From assembly GCA_017441825.1 (NCBI GenBank), contig JAFRVD010000092.1:1-38900 (forward strand): a stretch of DNA of 38,900 bases. Direction: 5' to 3'. The position numbers were made by a program, and so were the translations under genes. Each line of letters begins with the position of its first letter. Position 1 is the first letter of the stretch. The DNA comes from Lachnospiraceae bacterium. GTDB taxonomy: Bacteria; Bacillota; Clostridia; Lachnospirales; Lachnospiraceae. Of the stretch, positions 1 to 20,716 are shown piece after piece. The notes under the pieces were generated by a model. It did not search any database. It was not told the DNA's origin and saw only the letters and a list, made by a program, of their open reading frames with translations.

Positions 1-331
1 CTTCTTCCTCTTCCTCGTCTTTTTCTTCTGCCTCTTCTATTGTCAGGATATCTGCGAATCCTGTCATTTCCAATACTTCCATAACCGAAGGCGTAACGTT
101 TGTGAGGATCATCTCGCCCTTCTTCATCATGATCTTCTGCGCGGAAAGAAGCACGCGGAGACCCGCGGATGAAATATATTCGAGGTCGGAAAGATCCAGC
201 GTCAGCTTCTCTATGCTTTCGATCTCATCCAGTAAGGCTTCCTCCAGCTCCGGCGCGGTGGTCGTGTCCAGTCTTCCGGAGACCTTCACGGTCAGTTCAT
301 TTTCAATTTCTTTAATGAGTTCAAGTTCCAA
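1..331 (-). CDS. STAS-domain protein, anti-sigma factor antagonist-like (3' end outside window)
   Basis: The visible 110 residues form a STAS domain, the fold of SpoIIAA/RsbV anti-anti-sigma factors, which bind an anti-sigma kinase when unphosphorylated. The pattern LDLSDLEYISSAGLRVLLS at about residues 45-63 is the family signature, and the serine pair at 54-55 is where these proteins are phosphorylated. After the domain comes a very acidic Glu/Asp-rich tail that runs out of the window, so the C-terminus is unknown. I start it at a TTG (331-329) because an AGGAAGG ribosome binding site lies 7 bases upstream and no ATG is suitably placed. No cognate anti-sigma kinase or sigma factor gene is seen next to it within the window, although the ATPase domain of the MATE fusion at 18.9-20.7 kb is of the kinase type such proteins bind. 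Family assignment is firm; the pathway it serves is unknown. Confidence 0.85.
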   Translation of the reverse strand, partial: MELELIKEIENELTVKVSGRLDTTTAPELEEALLDEIESIEKLTLDLSDLEYISSAGLRVLLSAQKIMMKKGEMILTNVTPSVMEVLEMTGFADILTIEEAEEKDEEEEE

Positions 332-389
332 CGGTATACCTTCCTTTCTTCCCGTCTTACTAGAGCCGTATTCATACGTCTCCAATATA

Positions 390-3784: not shown

Positions 3785-4621
3785 TCAGCTGTTGTGCTTT
3801 CTGAAAACGATGGGCGAAACCCCCTTGTATTTCCTGAAGATCCGTGAGAAATAGCTGCTGTCGTTAAAGCCGCACTTGTATGCAATGTCCGTCACGGAGA
3901 CAGAGCTTTCCGTAAGGAGCCCGCACGCCTTGTTGACGCGGAACAGGTTGACGTAATCGAGCGGCGACATGGTGGTCACGGACTTGAAGAGGGACGAAAA
4001 GTACCTGGGCGACATCCTGACGATGCCCGCAAGCGTATCCACGTAGATCGGATGCATGTAGTTGTCCTTGATGTATTCGATGACCGGGTCGATCTTCTGC
4101 ATCTTGCGGATGGAGACAGACTGGGTTTCCCGGTCCGCCATGAAGAAGTGATGTTCTCCGGCGATCATGTACAGCTTATAAAGGAAGCCCGTGATCATGA
4201 ACTCTTCCCCGGGAGGATTGTTCCTGATGACCGGGAAGAATTCCGAGGCGTATTTCCGAAGCCCGAAGTCCTCCTTAGGGAACGTCGTGAAGATCTGCAG
4301 CCCGGCGTCCGGCGTGGTCTGCCCGGAGGCACCCATGAAGATCCTCATGGGATCGAACACCATCACGTCATATCTCCCGCTGTAGAAGATCCTGTCGTGG
4401 GGAACACATGAATTGACGAACAGGATGTCCCCCTGAGAGGCGGCGTACCGGGTCCCGCCGATGGTACATACGTAGCTCCCGCTCTCCACGTATACGATCT
4501 CGCACGCCTTGTGCCAATGGAGCGCAAGGAAGGGGTTCGAATTGATGCGGTTTTCATACGAGTGCTTTGCCGGAAACGCTTCCGGAAACTGGATGTCTTC
4601 ATTATAAAGGATAGTATCCAT
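3785..4621 (-). CDS. AraC-family transcriptional regulator
   Basis: A 278-residue regulator. The N-terminal half is a cupin-like sensor domain (FLALHWHKACEIVYVESG at about residues 30-47), and the C-terminal 100 residues hold two helix-turn-helix motifs, with the characteristic DIAYKCGFNDSSYFSRIFRK stretch near residues 245-264. Such proteins activate nearby sugar-utilisation genes when the cupin binds a sugar. The ATG at 4621 is chosen over an upstream in-frame ATG at 4684 because AGGAAAGG lies seven bases before it. A strong promoter lies upstream at 4726-4754. The isomerase follows after 13 bases; the divergent position opposite a GH5 remnant suggests it once controlled that glycosidase. 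Confidence 0.9.
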   Translation of the reverse strand: MDTILYNEDIQFPEAFPAKHSYENRINSNPFLALHWHKACEIVYVESGSYVCTIGGTRYAASQGDILFVNSCVPHDRIFYSGRYDVMVFDPMRIFMGASGQTTPDAGLQIFTTFPKEDFGLRKYASEFFPVIRNNPPGEEFMITGFLYKLYMIAGEHHFFMADRETQSVSIRKMQKIDPVIEYIKDNYMHPIYVDTLAGIVRMSPRYFSSLFKSVTTMSPLDYVNLFRVNKACGLLTESSVSVTDIAYKCGFNDSSYFSRIFRKYKGVSPIVFRKHNS

Positions 4622-4725
4622 GTCTGTGCCTTTCCTGTTCCTCGTGAAGAGCCCGTGACCCGGGCAATGTGCAGAAAAATACATTCTCCGTGAAAAATAC
4701 CGCTGTTCTACAGCACTTTTGTTCT

Positions 4726-4754
4726 ATTCTATGAGGATTTTAATATTTTGTCAA
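4726..4754 (-). promoter_or_regulatory. Promoter of the AraC-isomerase operon
   Basis: On the minus strand, consensus TTGACA (4754-4749), 17-base spacer, then TAGAAT (4731-4726). The surroundings are AT-rich. It ends only 12 bases from the start of the divergent GH5 remnant frame. Confidence 0.8.
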
Positions 4755-4765
4755 GCAGTTAACAC

Positions 4766-5032
4766 GTGATTATTCCGCTGAAATTGCACAAAAATACTCT
4801 TGACCCGAAGGCGAACGTCTACTGCGGCGAATTCGGCGTCATCAAGAGCACAGACCCGGATTCCCGGCGGAACTGGCACAGGGACATCGTTTCGATCTTC
4901 AACGAGCTTGACATCGGCCGCGCCGTGTGGGACTATAAAGACGGTCCGTACGAACACTTTGCTCTGGTGGACATTCCGAACAGCAAGCCTTATGATGAGG
5001 AAACGCTTCGGATCTGTGCGAGCAGGAAGTGA
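4766..5032 (+). pseudogene. 3' remnant of a GH5 (cellulase-family) glycoside hydrolase
   Basis: Eighty-eight codons that read as the last quarter of a glycoside hydrolase family 5 enzyme. The segment VYCGEFGVI contains the family's catalytic nucleophile glutamate (residue 22 of this fragment), and DIGRAVWDYKD followed by ALVD is the usual last beta-strand/loop. A full GH5 is 300-400 residues; the barrel with the acid/base glutamate (NEP motif) is absent, and the frame is closed by a TAA at 4760-4762. There is no credible ribosome binding site at the GTG that opens it. It lies directly downstream of the divergent AraC promoter, so the 5' part was probably lost by deletion or replaced. I call it a pseudogene. 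The 350 bases from 4755 to 5104 hold nothing else I can identify. Confidence 0.75.
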
Positions 5033-5104
5033 GCTTTTTGATATGAACTTTGAAGAGCTGTGCGTACGAAAGTGCGGCGCAGCTTTGTAATTGGAGGGAA
5101 AGAT

Positions 5105-6247
5105 ATGAAGGTCGTGATCGCAGTCGATTCGTTTAAGGGCAGCATGACGTCCATGGAGGCAGGGGAAGCCGTAAAGCGGGGTGTGCTTGCTGCGGGGCCC
5201 GCCGATGTCATTGTGAAGCCCCTCGCAGACGGCGGGGAAGGCACCACTGAGGCATTAGTTACCGGGCTCGGCGGCGAGTTTCGTGAGGTCACGGTACAGG
5301 GGCCTTTAGGAGTTCCTGTGACTGCCCGCTACGGAGTACTTCCGGACGGGAAGACCGCTGTCATGGAGATGGCGGAGGCAGCCGGGATCGTTCTGGTTCC
5401 GCGGGACCTACTGGACCCTTGGCATGCCAGTACTTTCGGTGTGGGCGAGATGATCCTGGACGCCGTGAACGCGGGGTACCGCGAGTTTATCATGGGGATC
5501 GGCGGATCCGCAACCACAGAGGGCGGTATCGGTATGCTTTCGGCCCTAGGCTTCGTCTTTTACGACAGTAACGGGCGGAAGCTTCCGCCCGTATTCGAAA
5601 GCCTCGGAAAGGTCGCCCGGATCTCCGCGGAAAACGTCCCTGATGCGCTCCTCTCCTGCCGGTTCCGGGTGGCCTGTGACGTCGAAAATCCCCTGTTTGG
5701 GGAGCGCGGCGCTGTGGCGGTATTCGGCCCGCAGAAGGGGGTAAAACCCTCGGAAATCGCTGAAATGGACGACTGCATGCGGCATTACGCTTCTATAGCG
5801 GAAAGCTTCAGCAAAAAAGCCTGCGCGGACGTTCCCGGCGCAGGGGCCGCCGGCGGCCTGGGCTTCGCTTTCTTAAATTTCCTACCCAGCACTGAGCTCC
5901 GCTCCGGCATCGGGATCGTACTGGACGCGGTCGGCCTTGAGGACGCCGTCCGCGATGCGGATTATGTGATCACCGGCGAGGGTCGCCTCGACGGCCAGAC
6001 CGCCATGGGCAAGGTCCCCGTGGGCGTCGCCCGCCTCGCGAAGCAGTACGGATGCACAGTGCTCGCCTTCGCGGGGAGCATCGGGGACGGCGCCGCCCTC
6101 TGCAACGCGGCGGGCATCGACGCGTATTTCCCGATCCTCCGCGGCATCACTACCTTGGACGCCGCGATGGACCCGGGTACGGCGCAGCGGAACATGGCGC
6201 TTGCGGTGGAGCAGGTGTTCCGGCTGCTTCACTGCGAGCGCCTTTAA
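5105..6247 (+). CDS. glxK: Glycerate kinase (type I)
   Basis: A 380-residue glycerate kinase of the GarK/GlxK family, which phosphorylates D-glycerate (2-phosphoglycerate in the best-studied members) and feeds lower glycolysis. Family features are the N-terminal KVVIAVDSFKGSMTS, the glycine-rich PLADGGEGTTEAL near residue 40, IGGSATTEGGIG near 137-148, and GAGAAGGLGFAF near 243-254. Length is exactly typical. The frame is open further upstream, but the ATG at 5105 has GGAGGG six bases before it and matches the family N-terminus. In sugar-acid catabolism this enzyme follows tartronate semialdehyde reductase, which is not in the window. No clear promoter or terminator is visible, so transcription from upstream is possible. 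Confidence 0.93.
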   Translation: MKVVIAVDSFKGSMTSMEAGEAVKRGVLAAGPADVIVKPLADGGEGTTEALVTGLGGEFREVTVQGPLGVPVTARYGVLPDGKTAVMEMAEAAGIVLVPRDLLDPWHASTFGVGEMILDAVNAGYREFIMGIGGSATTEGGIGMLSALGFVFYDSNGRKLPPVFESLGKVARISAENVPDALLSCRFRVACDVENPLFGERGAVAVFGPQKGVKPSEIAEMDDCMRHYASIAESFSKKACADVPGAGAAGGLGFAFLNFLPSTELRSGIGIVLDAVGLEDAVRDADYVITGEGRLDGQTAMGKVPVGVARLAKQYGCTVLAFAGSIGDGAALCNAAGIDAYFPILRGITTLDAAMDPGTAQRNMALAVEQVFRLLHCERL

Positions 6248-6316
6248 CGGCGGACTGCGGGATCCATATGGCCTCCCTTGCCCGCCTGTGTGAGACACAT
6301 TTTCCTGCCGCTGCGT

Positions 6317-6348
6317 CAAAAAGGGGCCCGGCCATCTGGCCGGGCCCT
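6317..6348 (-). terminator. Terminator of the large lipoprotein gene
   Basis: Perfect ten-base-pair GC stem (6324-6333 with 6338-6347) around a four-base loop; on the minus strand it runs into TTTTT (6322-6318). It lies 20 bases beyond the lipoprotein stop codon. Confidence 0.85.
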
Positions 6349-6367
6349 GCTGTATGCTTGCCGTCAC

Positions 6368-9300
6368 TTACGGCTCCTCTTCGCCCTCTGGTTCCTCGGA
6401 AGGCGCCGTGTCCGCAAGCTGCGTGAATCTCAGTATCACCTTCGTCGTGCCGTCCTCGCTCACCGTGATCACGTCCTCGAGCGTCCGGCCGGAAGCATCC
6501 GGCGAATAAGTATAGCCCTCAGGTGTGCCTGCAAGGTTCAGGATCTGCTGGACCGTGATTTCGTAGCTGTCAAGGACGAGTTCCTGTGTCAGGACCGTCT
6601 TCCACATGTACGTCATGCCCCAGCTCTTCTCCTTCACCTGCTCCTCCACCGTCATGGTGGGCGGGATCATCTCCCAGACCGCAGTGAAGCGGGCGTCTCC
6701 CGAGCAGACGACCGGACCGGTCACAATGTTTCCGGCTTCGTCCATCCAGCCCGCGAAGCGGTAGCCCTGGCGCGAGACGGACGGGAAGTCGATCTCAATA
6801 CCCTCGACCACCTTCGCAGTCGACGTCTCACCGTTCCCGTGGTCAAACGTGATCGTGCATGCATCCCACTCAAGGCAGATCTTAAAGGTCGTCGTACCGT
6901 CCTTATTGACGCTCTCCGTGGAAAGCTCGGAGTCCTGCTCATTCACCTTATAGTGCATGAACCAGTCCTTGCCCTCAACAACGTGGTCCGGCTCCGTCCG
7001 AAGAAGCTTGTTCTCCCGGAGGGTCTCCGCCGCATTCCCGACCGGGTCGCCCGGATAGAAAATACCGACGATATTATCCGCATCCGCGAGATAATACTGC
7101 GTGCTCCAGCCGCTGGTATCGTACGGCAGGTAGTATTCCACAATGACGTCCGCGTGATACCTGTACCAGGACGCCGTGTAGACCGTGTTCTCATCGGGCA
7201 TTCTGGTGGGCAGCTCCGTGATCAGGTTTCCGTCCTGATCGAGCCAGCCCAGGAATTTGTAGCCTTCCTTGACAGGCTCCGGGAACTCGAAGTCTTCAGG
7301 AACGAGAACATTCCCCTTGGTATCGACGTAGAGATAATACTCCGTCCCGTCTTCATCCATAAAGGTAATGGTCGCCAGGTTGCACTCCCAGTCAAGCTTC
7401 ACCGTCCGGTAAAGCCGCTCGGACAGCGTCTCAAAGCTGCTGCCGAGCCAGGTGATCGTCATTTCGACGGTACCCGAACCGCTCTCCTGGCTGTTCCGCA
7501 CGATGTAGTGCTTTCCGTCCTTAAACTCGTAAGAGAAGTCGGGATCGTCAAAGCTGATCTCATAGAGGTCATATGCACTCCGCCCGCTGTAATCCACGGA
7601 AACGGTGCTGGCGTCCTTGATGCTCATGGCCGACATCTTGAAGAGATTTCCGGGCAGCTGTACCCTGTTGCTGTCCTTCGTGAATTCCGTGGTCAGCTTC
7701 GTGAGATCGGCACCCTGCTCGTAGTTGAAATCACTGGTCACAGAGTCCACGCCGAGTCCGAAGAACGGGTATTCTTCTCCCCGGAGCCACTTTCTGTAGG
7801 CGATCGCCCCGTCCCCTGCCTGTATCACAAAGGTGACGTTATAATACGCGCCGACCTCCCATCGGAGTGCTCCGTTATAGTAAGCATCCACATTTTCCGT
7901 TGCCCGGCCCACGTCGTTGATCTTCACGCCGGCGTAGAAGAAGCCCCAGAAGCGTGTGTACAATCCGCCTTCCACCTCGAAGCCCACACTGTCGAGCCGT
8001 GCGTCAAACAAACCGACTCCTATAGTCAGGCGTACGCCGGCACGCAGGCCGATCGCGCCGAAAATGTAGGCATCTGCCTGGAATTCCGACTTGTCGGTCT
8101 CTTCCGACTGATTGCTTTCATTGGTTCCGTGGATCAGCAGGAAACTGAAGGTCTCACGGTACGAACGCTCATAATTCACGCTGACGCCTATGGCCGCGTT
8201 CAGCTGGGCGGAAACGATGAAGTCCGCCTTGATCCGGAACGCAAAGACATGGAAGGGATCTAAGCATCCGTTCCAGTCAAAGATATTCGGATTCAGAAGG
8301 TCCACAAAGCTGTTGCTCGCGCCCATGATGAACGACTTGTATTTCTGGGCGAGCGACCCCCCTCCGGTGGTCTGGTTCGGGAAGATCGCATTATGAACTT
8401 CCCTGAGGTCCTTGATATAATTCGCGAGGTCCAGGATGACCTCTCCGCCGCCCGTATGCTTCACGCCCTCCGGCCAGTCGATGCCCGCCGCCTTCTCTTC
8501 GGCCGTCTTCTCCTTCTCATTCTTGATGAGCGTCACGGAAGCCGTAAAGCCTGCGCCTACGTAGACGCCGTAAGAAGTACTGCCGGAGATCGTATAGTCG
8601 TAGATATACGGGAAGATCCATTTCCATCTCCAGACAGAGGTCGCGTCCACTGTGAGGCCTACAACAACTTCCGTCTCGAAGAAGAAAACGATGTTGACCC
8701 TGATGGCCGCTTTTGTCGCATCCGAGCCCCGGATCGTAATAATGAACTTGCAGTAGGCTTCTGCACGGACGCCTAAGCCGTATCCGGTCTTCCCTGCAAA
8801 ATGAACGATATTCGGGGAGATCTTGATGTCCGGATCGCCCTTCACGTCCACAGTGTTCGCCACGGCGCCGTTAGCGACTCTCTCAAAATCCCTGCCGCTC
8901 ATATGGTTTTCTTCGTTCGCACCGTAATAGAACGTCAGCTGGTCTATAGGCGTGTCCGCGATCGCTTCCTGCACCTCCTCGGACTCGAGCGCAAGCTCGG
9001 CCAGGTTATAGGTCGACTGCATGAGATAGCCGTTGTTGGTCAGTTCCTCGGCCACGCTGGCTTTGATAGCCTCTTCACTGTAGGCCGAACGGATCTGCGC
9101 CTCGTTAAGGCTCTGATAATGGTAGACGTCGATGCTCTCCATCATCTCGTCCATGCTGACGATCCTGTAGCTGACCTCTGCAGAATCGCTGCCGTCTTCT
9201 TCCTCAACGTACACGACGTCCATGACTTCAGCGTAGGCCGTGACCTCGCCGTCTTCAGGCGAACCGGTATAGAACGCCAGGTAATCGCCGGGCTCGACCT

Positions 9301-10339
9301 CCGTATTTTCGTCAAGCCTCATCTCCTTAAGCTCGTTGTCCGAAGAGAACTGGAGTGTTGAGCTTTCGAGCGTCACGCTGCTCTCCGCTCCCGCTGCCAT
9401 AAGCAATGCCTGCTCCTGATGAACCGGGATGACGTCCGGAATGAAGAGCACTTCGTCCTGCTCCGCCTGGATATAGCTGTAGTCCGAAAGGCCGTCGCCA
9501 CGCGGAGTCACAGCTGTAACCTTGACGTAGGATACCGCCGATTCCGTATCCGTGGCGGCACGTTGATCGGGCCGAACGCCATCATAGATCGCGATCACGT
9601 CGCCGATGACGTACGCGCCGTCATGATAGGCGAAGCTTCCGTTTCCGCCGGTCTTGAGCAGAGAGTTCGAATTATCGAGCCGGTACATGCCGTCCAACTG
9701 GAACGCCCTGCCTGCTTCAGCTGCGTTGATCTCGGCAGAAGAAAGGAACTGCACGTCCCTGTCGAGCTTCATGTTGTTGACTTCACGTCCGGCAATAGTC
9801 AGGTTATAGAGCCGTACGCTGCCCTGCTCGCCCACAAAGGCAAGATTCGGGTCCGTGAGCTCGATCTGGTAGACGTGGCCTTCATGAAATCCGCCCGCAC
9901 ACGTGACGTTGAACGTCCCGTTTCCTCCGTCCGCCACAAGGCGGTCCGGGTCGACCAGGTCTGTCTCGTTAAGATCCGTGAGAAGCGGGTTTGAAAAGTT
10001 TGAGAACTTCATGCCGGCAAGAACACTTTCCGCGCTGTACCCGGCGGGCGCTGCAACACGAATCACATGGCCGGGGTCTGCGCCCTTGACGGCCACAAAA
10101 TCATCGTCGTGGGTCGGGACTGACGTCAGTCCGTTTCCGGCGCCGAGCATGCCGACCTGGTTCACGCTGCTGTCCACATAGCCGCTGTTATCGGGCTCCT
10201 CCGGTACTTCAGGCTCAGCTTCAGTCTCCTTCGGCACTTCCTCCGGGCTGCCGGTGAAGTTTTCGACGTGCACACAGCCCGTGATGAGAACCAGGCACAG
10301 GATGAGGCACAGCAGTTTTTTGAGTTTACTCTGTTGCAT
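6368..10339 (-). CDS. Very large surface lipoprotein with InlB-type B-repeats
   Basis: A 1323-residue protein. Residues 1-20 form a lipoprotein signal ending in the lipobox LITGC, so it should be anchored by Cys21 to the outer face of the membrane; a Pro/Glu-rich linker follows. Residues of about 60-470 look like irregular beta-rich repeats (VNNMKLDRDVQFLS and later ELKEMRLDENTEVEPGDY share a layout). Residues of about 500-900 are rich in alternating hydrophobic/aromatic strands. Two Listeria-Bacteroides (InlB B) repeats lie at about 988-1058 (ending in YKFLGWLDQDGN..YTASW) and 1159-1223 (ending in YRFAGWMDEAGN..FTAVW), each followed by a domain reminiscent of mucin-binding repeats. The tail is acidic. 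The ATG at 10339 is preferred to a TTG two codons upstream because GAGGGG is eight bases before it. Probable adhesion or surface-layer role; function unproven. Confidence 0.85.
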   Translation of the reverse strand: MQQSKLKKLLCLILCLVLITGCVHVENFTGSPEEVPKETEAEPEVPEEPDNSGYVDSSVNQVGMLGAGNGLTSVPTHDDDFVAVKGADPGHVIRVAAPAGYSAESVLAGMKFSNFSNPLLTDLNETDLVDPDRLVADGGNGTFNVTCAGGFHEGHVYQIELTDPNLAFVGEQGSVRLYNLTIAGREVNNMKLDRDVQFLSSAEINAAEAGRAFQLDGMYRLDNSNSLLKTGGNGSFAYHDGAYVIGDVIAIYDGVRPDQRAATDTESAVSYVKVTAVTPRGDGLSDYSYIQAEQDEVLFIPDVIPVHQEQALLMAAGAESSVTLESSTLQFSSDNELKEMRLDENTEVEPGDYLAFYTGSPEDGEVTAYAEVMDVVYVEEEDGSDSAEVSYRIVSMDEMMESIDVYHYQSLNEAQIRSAYSEEAIKASVAEELTNNGYLMQSTYNLAELALESEEVQEAIADTPIDQLTFYYGANEENHMSGRDFERVANGAVANTVDVKGDPDIKISPNIVHFAGKTGYGLGVRAEAYCKFIITIRGSDATKAAIRVNIVFFFETEVVVGLTVDATSVWRWKWIFPYIYDYTISGSTSYGVYVGAGFTASVTLIKNEKEKTAEEKAAGIDWPEGVKHTGGGEVILDLANYIKDLREVHNAIFPNQTTGGGSLAQKYKSFIMGASNSFVDLLNPNIFDWNGCLDPFHVFAFRIKADFIVSAQLNAAIGVSVNYERSYRETFSFLLIHGTNESNQSEETDKSEFQADAYIFGAIGLRAGVRLTIGVGLFDARLDSVGFEVEGGLYTRFWGFFYAGVKINDVGRATENVDAYYNGALRWEVGAYYNVTFVIQAGDGAIAYRKWLRGEEYPFFGLGVDSVTSDFNYEQGADLTKLTTEFTKDSNRVQLPGNLFKMSAMSIKDASTVSVDYSGRSAYDLYEISFDDPDFSYEFKDGKHYIVRNSQESGSGTVEMTITWLGSSFETLSERLYRTVKLDWECNLATITFMDEDGTEYYLYVDTKGNVLVPEDFEFPEPVKEGYKFLGWLDQDGNLITELPTRMPDENTVYTASWYRYHADVIVEYYLPYDTSGWSTQYYLADADNIVGIFYPGDPVGNAAETLRENKLLRTEPDHVVEGKDWFMHYKVNEQDSELSTESVNKDGTTTFKICLEWDACTITFDHGNGETSTAKVVEGIEIDFPSVSRQGYRFAGWMDEAGNIVTGPVVCSGDARFTAVWEMIPPTMTVEEQVKEKSWGMTYMWKTVLTQELVLDSYEITVQQILNLAGTPEGYTYSPDASGRTLEDVITVSEDGTTKVILRFTQLADTAPSEEPEGEEEP

Positions 10340-10427
10340 GCACAATTCCCCTCATATCTTTATTGATCCCGAAGGACCATCCTCATGATGCCGGACGGCC
10401 CTCCGGTAATTCACTGAACTTCGTAAA

Positions 10428-14533: not shown

Positions 14534-15796
14534 TTACCGGATCTTCTCAAGCAATGTGTCGATCGCAGTCTCCTCCATGCCGCAGTCAATGAGGTACTGC
14601 CTTGCGTACGCGGCAAGGTCCGCCGTCGTAAGGTCGGCTTCATCGTCGCCCACAACGGTCTTCATCATTGCGATCAGGTTCTTGTCCAGAATGATGTCGT
14701 ACTTCTGCTTGTCCTTCTCTTCAGTAATCTCATAATAGTTATCGTACGTGACCATGTAGTCGTCCACGATCTCCTGGTACGACGCGCCGGCCAGCATTTC
14801 CACAAGCATGCAGACAAAGCCCGTCCGGTCCTTGCCTTCCGTGCAGTGGATGAGATACGGCCCGTCCGCTTCAGACATGGCAGTGAGCCCGTACGCGAGC
14901 TTCTCCTTGAATTCGTCCGAGAAGAAATTCATGTTCATGGCGAGCGGGATCACCTTCCCGTCATCATAGAGGGACTGGAAATAAGGCGAATTGAAATCGT
15001 CCGCCGCCATATACCGGTTGATCTTGACGTCGTTGTCCGCGAGGTCCAGGATGCAGTTCACGCCGGCGTCCGCAATAAGCGCGTCCACGTACGGCGCGCG
15101 GTTGTGCTGGTTGTCGCAGGGGGAAGCGGAACGGTAGACTGCGCCTTCCCGGAGGTCGCCCACGGTCATGTTCCGGAAGTTCGCGAAGACTTCGTCGCTT
15201 GGGAACAGGTTGCGCTCATCCTTATAGTGGATGTCCCGCGCGATCTGGATGTCCTTGTATTTGCCCCGCTCCCGGAGGACGACTGTCGCCGTGTCGTGCT
15301 CTTCAAGATCAAGACTCTGGAACAGGGTCACCACAGGCTCCGCATCCTCTCCGAGCTTGAGCTCAGCGGTCTCCCAGAGGTCCTCTCCGTAGTTGACCGC
15401 GGCCTTGATATAGTCGTAGCCGGGGTATGCAATGAGCAGCGGGTCGCCCGCGTCCACGTAGTATCCGTTGTAATAGGGAATGTCTTCGAGTGCGTAGCCG
15501 TTAGAGAAGATCACGTCCACGCTGTCCCCGTACTCAAAGCCCTTTTCGTTGAAGTCTTCAATGGTCATCTCGATGTACACGCCGCCGAATTCCGGCTCGT
15601 GCTGGATCGCGATATTTTCGATCATGGGGATGATCTCTTCGTCCTCCGCCGTATTATCCCGCGCCTCTTCCTCCGGAGCCGCCGATTCCTCTTCCGGCAC
15701 CGGGGTGACGGTGATATCGACGCACGACGCAAACACGATGCACGCCATGATGAGTGCGAGAATGAGCGCCATTGTCCGTCTCATGTTCTTTGCCAA
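14534..15796 (-). CDS. Lipoprotein tyrosine phosphatase with an N-terminal accessory domain
   Basis: A 420-residue exported protein. The signal peptide (1-24) ends in VFASC, so Cys25 should be lipidated. An acidic low-complexity linker (30-58) leads to a domain at about 60-190 whose pattern (FEYGDSVDVIF, then LLIAYPGYDYIKAAVNYGE) resembles the C-terminal domain of SAM hydroxide adenosyltransferases; this is inference from layout. The C-terminal half is a dual-specificity/tyrosine phosphatase: the loop HCTEGKDRTGF holds Cys318 and Arg324 of the CX5R motif, and LDLADND near 250 fits the upstream strand. I start at TTG 15796, nine bases after AGGAGG; the first ATG is too far from that site. Same strand as the amidotransferase-like gene 55 bases upstream. 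It would act outside the membrane on phosphorylated proteins, lipids or small molecules. Confidence 0.85.
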   Translation of the reverse strand: MAKNMRRTMALILALIMACIVFASCVDITVTPVPEEESAAPEEEARDNTAEDEEIIPMIENIAIQHEPEFGGVYIEMTIEDFNEKGFEYGDSVDVIFSNGYALEDIPYYNGYYVDAGDPLLIAYPGYDYIKAAVNYGEDLWETAELKLGEDAEPVVTLFQSLDLEEHDTATVVLRERGKYKDIQIARDIHYKDERNLFPSDEVFANFRNMTVGDLREGAVYRSASPCDNQHNRAPYVDALIADAGVNCILDLADNDVKINRYMAADDFNSPYFQSLYDDGKVIPLAMNMNFFSDEFKEKLAYGLTAMSEADGPYLIHCTEGKDRTGFVCMLVEMLAGASYQEIVDDYMVTYDNYYEITEEKDKQKYDIILDKNLIAMMKTVVGDDEADLTTADLAAYARQYLIDCGMEETAIDTLLEKIR

Positions 15797-16676: not shown

Positions 16677-18056
16677 ATGGCAGGAAACGGAAAGGCACGC
16701 ATGGATCTCACCAGGGGCCCGGTATTCAGGACCCTTTTTGTGTTTTCGCTGCCCATTCTGGCAGGCTCCGTCGTGACCCAGCTCTATAACGTGGCCGATT
16801 CCATCGTGGTCGGCCAGGTGGTAGGCGCCGATGCCCTCGCCGCAGTCTCCGCCGCAACACCTGCCATGAGCCTCATCAACATGTTCCTGATCGGTCTGTC
16901 CACGGGCTCGAACGTCGTGATCGCGCACCGCGCGGGCTCGCAGGACAACGCAAGGCTTCAGAAAGCGGTCGGGACGGTCGCGGCGCTCACGCTCGCGATC
17001 TCCCTTTTCGTGACAGTGGCAGGCTCGCTCCTCTCGCGGCCGCTTCTTCGCGCGATGCAGACCCCGGAAAACGTGCTGTCCGACGCGGTCCTCTACCTTA
17101 CGGTGATCTTCATCGGCACCTCGGGAAATCTGATCTACAACATGGGGAGCGGCGCGCTCCGCGGCATGGGAGACAGCCTCTGGCCGTTTTTATTCCTCAC
17201 GTTCTGCTCCGTACTCAATGTGATCCTGGACGTTCTGTTCGTAGCTGTGTTCGGGATGGGCGTTTTGGGCGCCGCCGTGGCCACTGCCATTGCACAGCTC
17301 ATATCCGGGATCGGGATCGTGCTCCGCTTAAACCGCGGGAACTACGGAGTGAAGCTCAGGCTTTCGGATATCCGGTTCGATCCTCTCGAGGCAAAGTCAG
17401 TCATCAGCATCGGGCTTCCGGCGTCCATCCAGAACGTGGGAAACGCCATCGCGAACATCTGCTGCCAGACCTTCTACAACGGCTTCGGCTCGACCTTCAT
17501 TGCAGGCAACAGCATCGTGACAAAGATCGAGGATTTCTCGTACATCCCGGCGGTCGCGCTGTCCACGGCGGTGTGTACCTTCGTGGGCCAGAACATTGCC
17601 GCAATGAAGATGGACCGGCTGAAAAAGGGCGTCAATTCTGCCATGCTGGTCCTGTTCGGGATCGGGACTGCCATGTGCGGCGTCATGCTGGGCCTTCGGG
17701 ACGTACTGCCGCTCGCCTTTACGAAGGACGCCGACGTTATCCTGATCGCGTCCGAAGGACTTTCGGTCCTCGCCTTCGTCTCCGTCTTTCACGGTATCGA
17801 CCGCGTGCTCGTCAATGCAATGCGCGGCGCGGGGAAGTCCGTGGTGCCGATGGTCACCGCCCAGTTCGGGGCTTTCTCAAGGATCCCGCTGGTCTGGCTC
17901 CTTGCGGTCCGCACCGGAAACTACCACGGCGTGTTCTACGCGATGCTGATCGCGTCTCTTCTCCGGACCCTCGCCATCATGGCCTACTATTTCTTCGGCG
18001 GCTGGAAAAATACGGTCCGCCAGTATCTCGAAAAACACGAAGGACCGTCCTCCTAG
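16677..18056 (+). CDS. MATE family efflux transporter
   Basis: A 459-residue exporter of the multidrug and toxic compound extrusion family, which expels organic cations using a Na+ or H+ gradient. It begins with the family pattern LTRGPVFRTLFVFSLPILAGSVVTQLYNVADSIVVGQVVG (shown in parts at 11-30 and 31-50) and has 12 hydrophobic segments in two related halves, the second opening near residue 240 with SIGLPASIQNVGNAIANI. Start: ATG with AAGGAG six bases upstream, behind its own promoter. The stop codon lies inside the loop of its terminator. It is divergent from the amidotransferase-like gene, with abutting -35 boxes, which suggests joint control. The exported compound is unknown. Confidence 0.92.
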   Translation: MAGNGKARMDLTRGPVFRTLFVFSLPILAGSVVTQLYNVADSIVVGQVVGADALAAVSAATPAMSLINMFLIGLSTGSNVVIAHRAGSQDNARLQKAVGTVAALTLAISLFVTVAGSLLSRPLLRAMQTPENVLSDAVLYLTVIFIGTSGNLIYNMGSGALRGMGDSLWPFLFLTFCSVLNVILDVLFVAVFGMGVLGAAVATAIAQLISGIGIVLRLNRGNYGVKLRLSDIRFDPLEAKSVISIGLPASIQNVGNAIANICCQTFYNGFGSTFIAGNSIVTKIEDFSYIPAVALSTAVCTFVGQNIAAMKMDRLKKGVNSAMLVLFGIGTAMCGVMLGLRDVLPLAFTKDADVILIASEGLSVLAFVSVFHGIDRVLVNAMRGAGKSVVPMVTAQFGAFSRIPLVWLLAVRTGNYHGVFYAMLIASLLRTLAIMAYYFFGGWKNTVRQYLEKHEGPSS

Positions 18057-18889: not shown

Positions 18890-20656
18890 TTAAATTTTCA
18901 TGGACAGGACGTTCAGGCCCAGAAGGTTCTGGTAGCTGATGTCCCTGATCATCCGGTAGATCATCCGGATGCCGATGTTCTTCGCAGGGTCGTCGCCCGC
19001 AAGGATCTTTGTCCGGGCCTCCGGGTCGAACGGCACGCAGTCGTCCTTGATCCGCAGCATGACGCTATCATCCTTGTGGATCACGCGGACATCCACCGAA
19101 TGCCTCTTCTTATCCTTTGTGAAGCCGTGCTCCACAATGTTCCCGGCCATCTCCTCCATTGCAAGTGCCGCATAGTACGCACGCCGTTCGTCGATCCCCC
19201 GGCTGCGCGCAAAATGCTGCACCTGCTCCGCGACCCGGACCACCTCCTCGGAAGTCCTGACGCTCAAGTCAAGCCGCTCCTCCGGCGGCACGCCGAAGCC
19301 CTCCGGGATCGCGAGAAGCTTCTCCATATTGTTCGGGAACGCCTTGCCTCTGACCCAGGAATACCCGATAAAGCACAGGCAGATCACGATGCCGTTCAGG
19401 ACGTTTGCAACGTACACCCCCGTTACGCCCATACCCGGTGTAAGGAGCGCGGAAAATGCGGACACACAGACCACGCCGTCCAAAACAGCCAGCACGTTCA
19501 CGAGGACCTGCCTGCCCATCAGCTGTGAATAGCAGTTGAAATGCATGGTGAAGATGCTGAGCGCCATGCAGAACGGCAGGATCCTGAGGCCCGTCTGCAT
19601 GAGTTCATGGACTTCAGGCTCCGAATCCCGGAAGAAGACCGAGGACAGGGGATCCGAAAAGACGATGATGAGGCCGATCACCGCAAGCATTATCGGTATG
19701 AAAACGCGCATCATGACGCGCATGATATCGGCAATGGTCTGCCGGTCCTCCTCTCCTACGCTCACGCTTAAGAGAAGCCTGGACACCGCGATCATACCGC
19801 CCGGGATCGCCCAGAAGATGCCGAGGACGCTTCCCGCCGCGGAAAACGCGGGCAGCCCGACGCTCCCCGCATACGTGATGAGGAGCTTGTTCACGATGAT
19901 CCCGCGCAGCGTCTGATAGAGGTTCGTGGCCGCACCGGGGAAGCCGATCACGAAAACCGGCCTGATCTCCCTGAACGGAAGGTCCTTCACGGTAAATTTC
20001 AGCGACGATCTCTTCGTCAGGAAGTACTGGGCCTGTACGCCCATGAACACCCACATGCCGATGGATGAGGACAGCGCGACGCCCATCTCCTGCATGTCAA
20101 GCACCATCACAAACACGACGTTCAGGATCAGGTTCGTAATGATGTACACGATGCTTGCCGCAAACGTCCGCCGCGGCCTGTTTTCCATCGCGAGGAACGG
20201 CGCGAGCTGGGCGCCTAATACGAGCGGCAGGACGCCGATTGCCTGGCCCATCAGGTAGCGGTTGAAGATCGGCCTGAGTGTCTCGTCCTTCGTAAAGAAG
20301 CCTGTCAGGTCAAACGCGCCCATTGCAAGGAACAGGACCGTAAATAAGATGCCGATCCCGGCGGCCAGAAGCATGACCAGGGAAAACGTCCCCTGTAGCT
20401 TCTTCTGCTCGTTCTGCCCGAGGTACTTTCCGCAGATGATGGCGGCACCTCCCACAAGGATCGTGCCGATGGAAGTCACGAGCATGTTGGCGGGGCTGTA
20501 AAGCCCCACCGCGCTCATTGCGTCTACACCTACATAGTTGCTGGCAAAATAGCCGGACACCAGTCCGTTGACTGCTCCCACGGCGGCTAAAAGGACCTGT
20601 ACCGGAAGCAGGCGCAGCATCAGTCTCGTAATCATCCGTAAATTGCTTTGCGGCAT
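18890..20656 (-). CDS. MATE transporter fused to an RsbW/SpoIIAB-like ATPase domain
   Basis: A 588-residue fusion. Residues 1 to about 440 form a MATE exporter with 12 hydrophobic segments (early landmarks GLVSGYFASNYVGVDAMSAVG and KYLGQNEQKKLQG). After a linker, residues of about 459-588 form a GHKL ATPase of the anti-sigma-factor/HATPase_c_2 type: N box AMEEMAGNIVEHGF, G1-like RIKDDCVPFDPEA, G2-like DPAKNIGIRMIYRM, and the closing NLLGLNVLSMKI. The usual DxGxG of G1 is altered to DDCVPF. Such domains bind ATP and either phosphorylate STAS antagonists or hold sigma factors. The ATG at 20656 is preferred because AAAGGA lies just upstream; an in-frame ATG at 20704 with GGAG nearby would add 16 basic residues. 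Third or later gene of the dgoD-region operon. Both domains are clear; how they work together is unknown. Confidence 0.88.
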   Translation of the reverse strand: MPQSNLRMITRLMLRLLPVQVLLAAVGAVNGLVSGYFASNYVGVDAMSAVGLYSPANMLVTSIGTILVGGAAIICGKYLGQNEQKKLQGTFSLVMLLAAGIGILFTVLFLAMGAFDLTGFFTKDETLRPIFNRYLMGQAIGVLPLVLGAQLAPFLAMENRPRRTFAASIVYIITNLILNVVFVMVLDMQEMGVALSSSIGMWVFMGVQAQYFLTKRSSLKFTVKDLPFREIRPVFVIGFPGAATNLYQTLRGIIVNKLLITYAGSVGLPAFSAAGSVLGIFWAIPGGMIAVSRLLLSVSVGEEDRQTIADIMRVMMRVFIPIMLAVIGLIIVFSDPLSSVFFRDSEPEVHELMQTGLRILPFCMALSIFTMHFNCYSQLMGRQVLVNVLAVLDGVVCVSAFSALLTPGMGVTGVYVANVLNGIVICLCFIGYSWVRGKAFPNNMEKLLAIPEGFGVPPEERLDLSVRTSEEVVRVAEQVQHFARSRGIDERRAYYAALAMEEMAGNIVEHGFTKDKKRHSVDVRVIHKDDSVMLRIKDDCVPFDPEARTKILAGDDPAKNIGIRMIYRMIRDISYQNLLGLNVLSMKI

Positions 20657-20716
20657 AAGTTTCCTTTCTCCGGCTCTCAGGCGGCGCCGCCGGAAGACGT
20701 TCATAAAACTCCCGGG

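Follow-up and report, generated by a model that had tools for sequence, protein, structure and literature searches.

Here we describe a gene that joins a MATE-fold transporter, in one reading frame, to a C-terminal domain with the predicted fold of SpoIIAB and RsbW. It lies on the reverse strand of a 38,900-nucleotide stretch of Lachnospiraceae DNA (contig JAFRVD010000092.1 of assembly GCA_017441825.1, positions 1 to 38,900; the whole stretch is referred to as the window). Partner switching is best known for the control of sigma factors. We consider the chances evenly balanced that this fusion is instead a transporter under partner-switching control, with its tail acting as a docking site for a STAS protein. 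What is new here is the gene context, in which genes for STAS proteins, SpoIIE-type PP2C phosphatases and STAS-APH-HATPase proteins occur near the fusion in part of its relatives.

In the circuit that we propose, the STAS protein would be phosphorylated by a separate RsbW-like kinase domain, which may stand free or form part of a STAS-APH or PP2C fusion, and the SpoIIE-type PP2C phosphatase would remove the phosphate. Unphosphorylated STAS would dock on the transporter's RsbW-fold tail in the way that SpoIIAA docks on SpoIIAB, and this docking would open or close transport. The transporter would thereby hold the position of the sigma factor in the classical circuit. In the window's own genome, the partners would act in trans, the candidates being a STAS gene at the contig edge and a row of STAS, STAS-APH-HATPase, PHP and PP2C genes on contig C39.

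The fusion is a single open frame found in many Clostridia

The gene encodes 588 residues, a 12-helix MATE part followed by the RsbW/SpoIIAB-fold domain (Table 1). The longest frame in the list of open reading frames (ORFs), 18890..20704 on the reverse strand, has 604 residues; the start at 20656 is preceded by AGAAAGGAAACTT, which by eye resembles a ribosome site and gives the 588-residue protein. Pfam supports both halves, with MatE at 75.4 bits in two stretches (cut-off 24.9) and HATPase_c_2 at 53.3 bits (cut-off 27.4), so that the original prediction of a MATE transporter fused to a GHKL ATPase of the RsbW/SpoIIAB type, and its expectation that a profile search of the C-terminus would find such a domain, are borne out. 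The stricter NCBIfam cut-offs were missed by both halves: TIGR00797 (MATE) scored 92.2 against 147.4 bits, and the RsbW equivalogs PRK04069 and TIGR01924 scored 17.1 against 145 and 12.3 against 155 bits.

Structural models (AF2, based on 52 and 21 sequences) agree with the Pfam matches. The first part has a MATE fold, its best solved match in Foldseek being the inward-facing PfMATE 6fhz with a TM-score of 0.85 by target length. A search of the single tail sequence against solved chains gave nothing useful (best E 0.45) and a fold search was required instead; the predicted fold of the tail is that of SpoIIAB and RsbW. The protein is thus a MATE by fold and Pfam, not by its aspartate (Asp) pair or by the TIGR00797 cut-off, and its tail is an HATPase_c_2 by fold and Pfam, not an RsbW by the NCBIfam cut-offs.

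Scanning genome contigs yielded 80 loci. Going by their titles, most are from gut and rumen Clostridia or Erysipelotrichaceae; two are from spirochaetes and another two from Coriobacteriaceae. Butyrivibrio, Frisingicoccus and Lachnospiraceae are among the titles, in line with the mention in the original prediction of related fusions in Lachnospiraceae annotations. In 74 of the 80 loci the two domains form a single frame over at least 480 residues; six loci with stops in range or short frames were left out of the counts (L036, L062, L070, L071, L076 and L079), one of which, L036, proved on later view to be an open 590-residue fusion. There is no stop codon between the two domains in the window's 588-residue frame, and a missed stop, an assembly error or a chance fusion is ruled out by the recurrence of the same two-domain frame. 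Among 391 genomes of the class, 36 matched a profile of the tail at E 1e-8, and 11 of 61 relatives did so at 1e-20, the own genome being included in both counts. Of 32 proteins scanned (from 30 class-sample loci plus L005 and L008), 25 have MatE and four have SpoIIE. A survey of PF13581 in 150 genomes of the family returned mostly short free frames and was of no use for counting fusions. Literature searches among open-licence papers found no description of a MATE-HATPase_c_2 fusion.

The own genome holds a second MATE-HATPase_c_2 fusion on contig C91 (L005, at L159:4986-6743 on the reverse strand), which is 26% identical to that of the window and retains the Asp of transmembrane helix 1 (TM1). 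In a group of four loci, a second, divergent MATE-HATPase gene lies near the fusion, as at L060:1904-3679 and L067:2606-4381 on the fusion's strand; its product may perhaps form a heterodimer with the fusion. Contig C28 of the own genome encodes an SDF sodium:dicarboxylate symporter with a degenerate HATPase_c_2-like N-terminal domain (L008:1483-3078, forward strand). The first 152 residues of this protein were matched in the own genome only, 1 of 291 class genomes (E 1e-6), and it is therefore not used as support.

The fused tail has altered glycine boxes beside retained catalytic residues

In the RsbW/SpoIIAB family, conserved Glu, Asn and Asp residues are required for ATP binding and phosphate transfer. 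We aligned 99 fusions jointly (74 scan loci, the window, 23 class loci and L005; L129 duplicates L049). E502 is retained in 99/99, N506 in 93/99, D538 in 95/99 and N582 in 99/99 fusions; the scan's query words included MEEMAGNI, so that N-box conservation in the scan set is biased, and the class set came from a profile. Asn or Asp is also lost in a few divergent fusions.

The glycines of the nucleotide-binding boxes follow another course. The motifs named in the original prediction, the N box MEEMAGNIVEHGF, the G1-like DDCVPFDP and the G2-like NIGIRM, are present as claimed, and the missing G1 glycine that it pointed out is a trait of the family. In the window tail, Cys540 and Asn560 replace the glycines of G1 (DxG) and the first of G2 (GxG), and the last G2 glycine, Gly562, is retained. 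The G1 place holds Cys in 83 of the 99 fusions (71/75 in the scan set, 12/24 in the class set with L005) and Gly in 10; the first G2 place holds Asn in 77 and Gly in three. Conservation of Cys540 rules out random decay of the G1 box. We compared these tails with the 19 HATPase domains without a MATE part that the fused-tail profile matched, 18 of them near fusions and one from the C39 row of the own genome (the one at L162 duplicates that at L049). Both GG[LV]G and DxG, sought by pattern over the whole protein, are retained in 19/19. Because the glycine boxes are altered in the fused tails and intact in all of these other HATPases, the fused domain is a distinct version. The original prediction had not seen the loss of the first G2 glycine, the loss of the Asp pair discussed below, the HATPases with intact glycines close to the fusion in relatives or the second fusion of the own genome.

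Two divergent fusions with decayed catalytic residues, L147 and L148, sit in regions (L179 and L180) that also hold STAS and PP2C genes along with a free HATPase whose motifs are intact. No other finding hints as strongly that the fused domain may be a receiver and that the kinase may lie elsewhere, although in the main clade the conserved Glu, Asn and Asp would be compatible with kinase activity of the tail. Decay of motifs in some divergent members would also suit a tail that is an inert leftover, retained for folding or stability only; of the 17 invariant columns in alignment A1, 12 nevertheless fall in the tail (a figure partly biased by the search word MEEMAGNI), and we regard such a leftover as very improbable.

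Partner-switching genes lie near the fusion in part of its relatives

Neighbours were called with profiles built from the STAS and PP2C genes of the own genome, on 770 greedily chosen flank ORFs. Within about 6 kb of the fusion, STAS was found in 17/80 loci, PP2C in 17/80 and either of them in 25/80 (the PP2C match in L087 is weak, at 3.8e-6). Where both flanks exceed 5 kb, 18 of 51 loci have such partner genes, and 45 of the 47 partner ORFs are on the strand of the fusion. The association exceeds the background density of STAS genes: 146 STAS matches per 99.5 Mb in 40 genomes predict 0.70 STAS in the 477.6 kb of flanks of 40 loci, against at least one STAS in 11 of these 40 loci (17 ORFs). 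It recurred in the class-sample regions, where partners were found in 12 of 20, nearer 10 of 18 when only distinct regions are counted (the fusion at L162 is that of L049, and near copies stand at L163 and L164; in the tree, L129 to L131). The clearest cluster is L170, in which STAS, PP2C, the fusion and STAS-APH-HATPase lie at 4327-9541; the STAS gene of L174 is encoded on the opposite strand, about 4.6 kb off.

Counted by loci, the largest neighbour groups are PP2C (16), STAS-APH with or without HATPase (16) and STAS (14), followed by VanX-like M15 peptidases (7), PHP (7), HAD (5), ClC channels (4) and the second MATE-HATPase genes (4). An ABC-ATPase-like group occurs in 13 loci and is adjacent in none, and several further groups of four to seven loci have the look of shadow frames or of genes that are neighbours by chance. 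Depending on the cluster, the HATPase is joined either to STAS-APH or to PP2C, and these HATPases are the candidate kinases of the proposed circuit. SSAG is retained in 28/28 STAS domains of the scan loci. Directly after the fusion, a gene for a VanX-like D-Ala-D-Ala dipeptidase (Peptidase_M15) is found at L009:7803-8456, L010:5073-5729 and L013:7800-8453, a neighbour that may hint at a cell-wall-related substrate. A ClC-type channel gene takes the directly downstream place at L021:7808-9058, L016:7778-9028 and L022:6976-8226.

We ran Pfam on 92 neighbour ORFs picked near fusions in loci with partners and obtained 25 STAS, 12 APH, nine SpoIIE and eight HATPase_c_2 matches. Sigma families (Sigma70_r2) were not among the 25 commonest of the 50 Pfam families in these 92 chosen neighbours, where a single case may be hidden. 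This bears on the possibility that the fusion is a membrane-tethered anti-sigma factor, whose tail would hold a sigma factor with the MATE part as anchor or sensor. The predicted SpoIIAB and RsbW fold of the tail is what such a protein would have; the neighbour families listed speak against it, and each of the 12 Sigma70_r2 matches in the own genome is on a contig other than those of its two fusions, an arrangement with which action in trans is still compatible. We consider this role highly unlikely, and the suggestion in the original prediction that the fusion tethers a sigma regulator finds no support in these neighbours. Its other suggestion, that the domain senses or gates transport, holds in kind, as partner-switching genes cluster with the fusion in part of the relatives; gating itself would follow from the proposed docking.

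The own genome offers separate parts. The STAS gene that the original prediction placed near the window start is real but lies 18.5 kb from the fusion, at the contig edge; its product shares 50-61% identity with 14 of the 15 free STAS ORFs close to fusions (13 loci) and 34% with that of L039. On contig C39 (L158:2377-6952), STAS, STAS-APH-HATPase, PHP and SpoIIE-PP2C genes stand in a row with no MATE gene among them, and the two STAS domains there reach at most 67% and 66% identity with STAS near fusions. These genes may supply partners in trans.

Several observations weigh against STAS docking as the function of the tail. Neither fusion of the own genome, in the window or on C91, has STAS or PP2C close by. 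No STAS or PP2C was seen within about 6 kb in 55/80 loci, some of them with short flanks, or in 33 of the 51 with at least 5 kb on both sides, and just eight of the 47 partner ORFs, from six loci, come closer than 150 bases to the frame of the fusion. Partners were not seen in eight of the 20 class regions, nor in nine of ten regions from the own genus (eight) and family (two), several of which are on short contigs; in the remaining one, L198, 26 bases separate a STAS gene from the frame of the fusion. Finally, the retained Glu, Asn and G1 Asp (99/99, 93/99 and 95/99) suggest that the tail may have nucleotide binding, or even kinase activity, beyond docking. A stand-alone energy gate, in which the tail, by binding ATP or ADP, would gate the transporter according to energy charge with no STAS partner, would fit the conserved N box and G1 Asp and the own-genus and family regions that lack adjacent partners. 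It would leave the clustering of STAS and PP2C genes unexplained and would have to work without the first G2 glycine, and we judge it improbable.

The MATE part has lost its N-lobe aspartates in the window's clade

In profile alignments, Ser34 of the window protein takes the place of the TM1 Asp in DinF-BH and PfMATE, and Asn179 that of their second N-lobe Asp. We take these places to be those of the ion-site pair of VcmN and ClbM. That N-lobe pair is D35/D178 in VcmN and Asp53/Asp199 in ClbM (excerpted text of PMC7949106). At positions 34 and 179, the scan set has Ser/Asn in 47/75 and Asp/Asp in 14/75 fusions, and the class set with L005 has them in 3/24 and 17/24. The window belongs to a clade of 54 rows (SH-aLRT 98, in a quick tree with SH-aLRT support only), none of which has Asp at 34 (51 Ser, three other). 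Of the 54 rows in which place 34 holds Ser, Ala or Thr, 54, 54 and 53 retain Arg251, Arg293 and Asp393, respectively. Since the Asp pair is gone, it is doubtful that this clade uses the N-lobe for ordinary coupling to protons or sodium; its MATE part may be a facilitator, an anion carrier or a sensor. Partner genes in the scan loci were found in 20/49 fusions with Ser, Ala or Thr at 34, in 2/17 with Asp and in 2/7 with Asn; L036, which has partners, is outside the alignment.

If ordinary ion-coupled export is doubtful, the fusion could be an input rather than an output, with the MATE part as a membrane sensor (transceptor) steering kinase activity of the tail toward STAS proteins that act elsewhere. 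The missing Asp pair (Ser34 and Asn179) and the retained E502, N506 and D538 would suit such a sensor. Its kinase, however, would have to work with replaced G1 and G2 glycines that are intact in other HATPases nearby, the PP2C neighbours themselves have long N-terminal regions that look sensor-like by eye, and in divergent fusions the catalytic residues decay while the MATE part and the neighbours persist. We regard this alternative as somewhat unlikely.

Comparison with known systems

The proposed circuit resembles SpoIIAB/SpoIIAA/SpoIIE and RsbW/RsbV/RsbU in its RsbW-fold domain and in the STAS and PP2C genes nearby in part of the relatives. It differs in that the domain is fused to a transporter, in the altered G1 and G2 glycines, and in that no sigma factor was seen among the 25 listed Pfam families of the 92 neighbours. 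PfMATE and DinF-BH share the fold and the sequence profile of the MATE part, whereas the window protein has both N-lobe Asp residues replaced and carries an extra C-terminal domain.

Outputs other than sigma factors have precedents, cited here from parts of the respective sources. In SiaABCD of Pseudomonas aeruginosa the output of the switch is a diguanylate cyclase (PMC7647112, PMC8457831), whereas here it would be a transporter that bears the RsbW-fold domain itself. MlaB is a STAS protein on an ABC transporter, for which phosphorylation at the interface has been proposed (PMC7367683); like the STAS protein proposed here it acts on a transporter, but the partner that it binds is an ABC ATPase subunit and not an RsbW-fold domain. 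SLC26/SulP transporters likewise join a secondary transporter to a partner-switching-type domain (PMC8256260), with the STAS half fused there and the anti-sigma half in the present fusion. No anti-sigma half fused to a secondary transporter was found in the portions of the SiaABCD, MlaB and SLC26 sources covered (PMC7647112, PMC7367683, PMC8256260).

Coordinates and other genes of the window

Table 1. Position of the fusion, its domains and key residues, and of the possible partner gene, in the window.
Feature	Position	Strand	Remarks
MATE-HATPase_c_2 fusion gene	18890..20656	-	588 aa plus stop; alternative start 20704
MATE part, residues 3-437, transmembrane helices	19346..20650	-	AF2 model, Foldseek, Pfam
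RsbW/SpoIIAB-fold domain, residues 461-588	18893..19276	-	
N box MEEMAGNIVEHGF, residues 500-512; E502 and N506 retained	19121..19159	-	Alignments
G1 box DDCVPFDP, residues 538-545; Asp retained, Gly replaced by Cys	19022..19045	-	Alignments
G2 remnant KNIGI, residues 559-563; first Gly replaced by Asn	18968..18982	-	Motif comparison
Ser34, opposite the TM1 Asp of DinF-BH and PfMATE	20555..20557	-	Profile alignments
Asn179, opposite the second N-lobe Asp of DinF-BH and PfMATE	20120..20122	-	Profile alignments
STAS-domain gene cut by the contig edge; possible in-trans partner	2..385	-	PF01740 7.9e-20

According to Pfam, the genes 5' of the fusion on the same strand encode a Mem_trans (auxin-carrier-type) transporter, an enolase-superfamily enzyme and an iron alcohol dehydrogenase, and the fusion precedes a HAD hydrolase gene. 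A MATE gene without an HATPase domain lies 0.8 kb from the fusion on the opposite strand (16677-18053, forward; 171 bits); it retains the TM1 Asp and is only distant kin of the fusion. Farther off are a reverse-strand gene with a Y_phosphatase3 tyrosine-phosphatase-like domain by Pfam and a start that looks lipoprotein-like by eye (14537-15796), and a 1325-residue reverse-strand frame with Listeria-Bacteroides repeat domains (6371-10345), overlapped by an opposite 661-residue frame that has no Pfam match.

Implications

A tentative extension of the docking model, possible and short of probable, is that the tail is a pseudokinase-like STAS receiver in a protein that has given up the Asp pair in the window's clade, so that docking of unphosphorylated STAS, and not transcription, would time a channel or carrier. 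Clostridia of the rumen and gut and, apparently through transfer, a few spirochaetes and Coriobacteriaceae would then have re-used partner-switching parts as a post-translational valve. Clear predictions follow from the altered glycine boxes and the missing Asp pair, and some relatives carry natural gene sets of STAS, phosphatase, HATPase and target, one such operon being that of Butyrivibrio proteoclasticus P6B7 (L033). For annotation, the fusion is a warning that an HATPase_c_2 domain need not mean an anti-sigma factor. If the proposed circuit is true, the same phospho-switch would turn transport on and off without new transcription.
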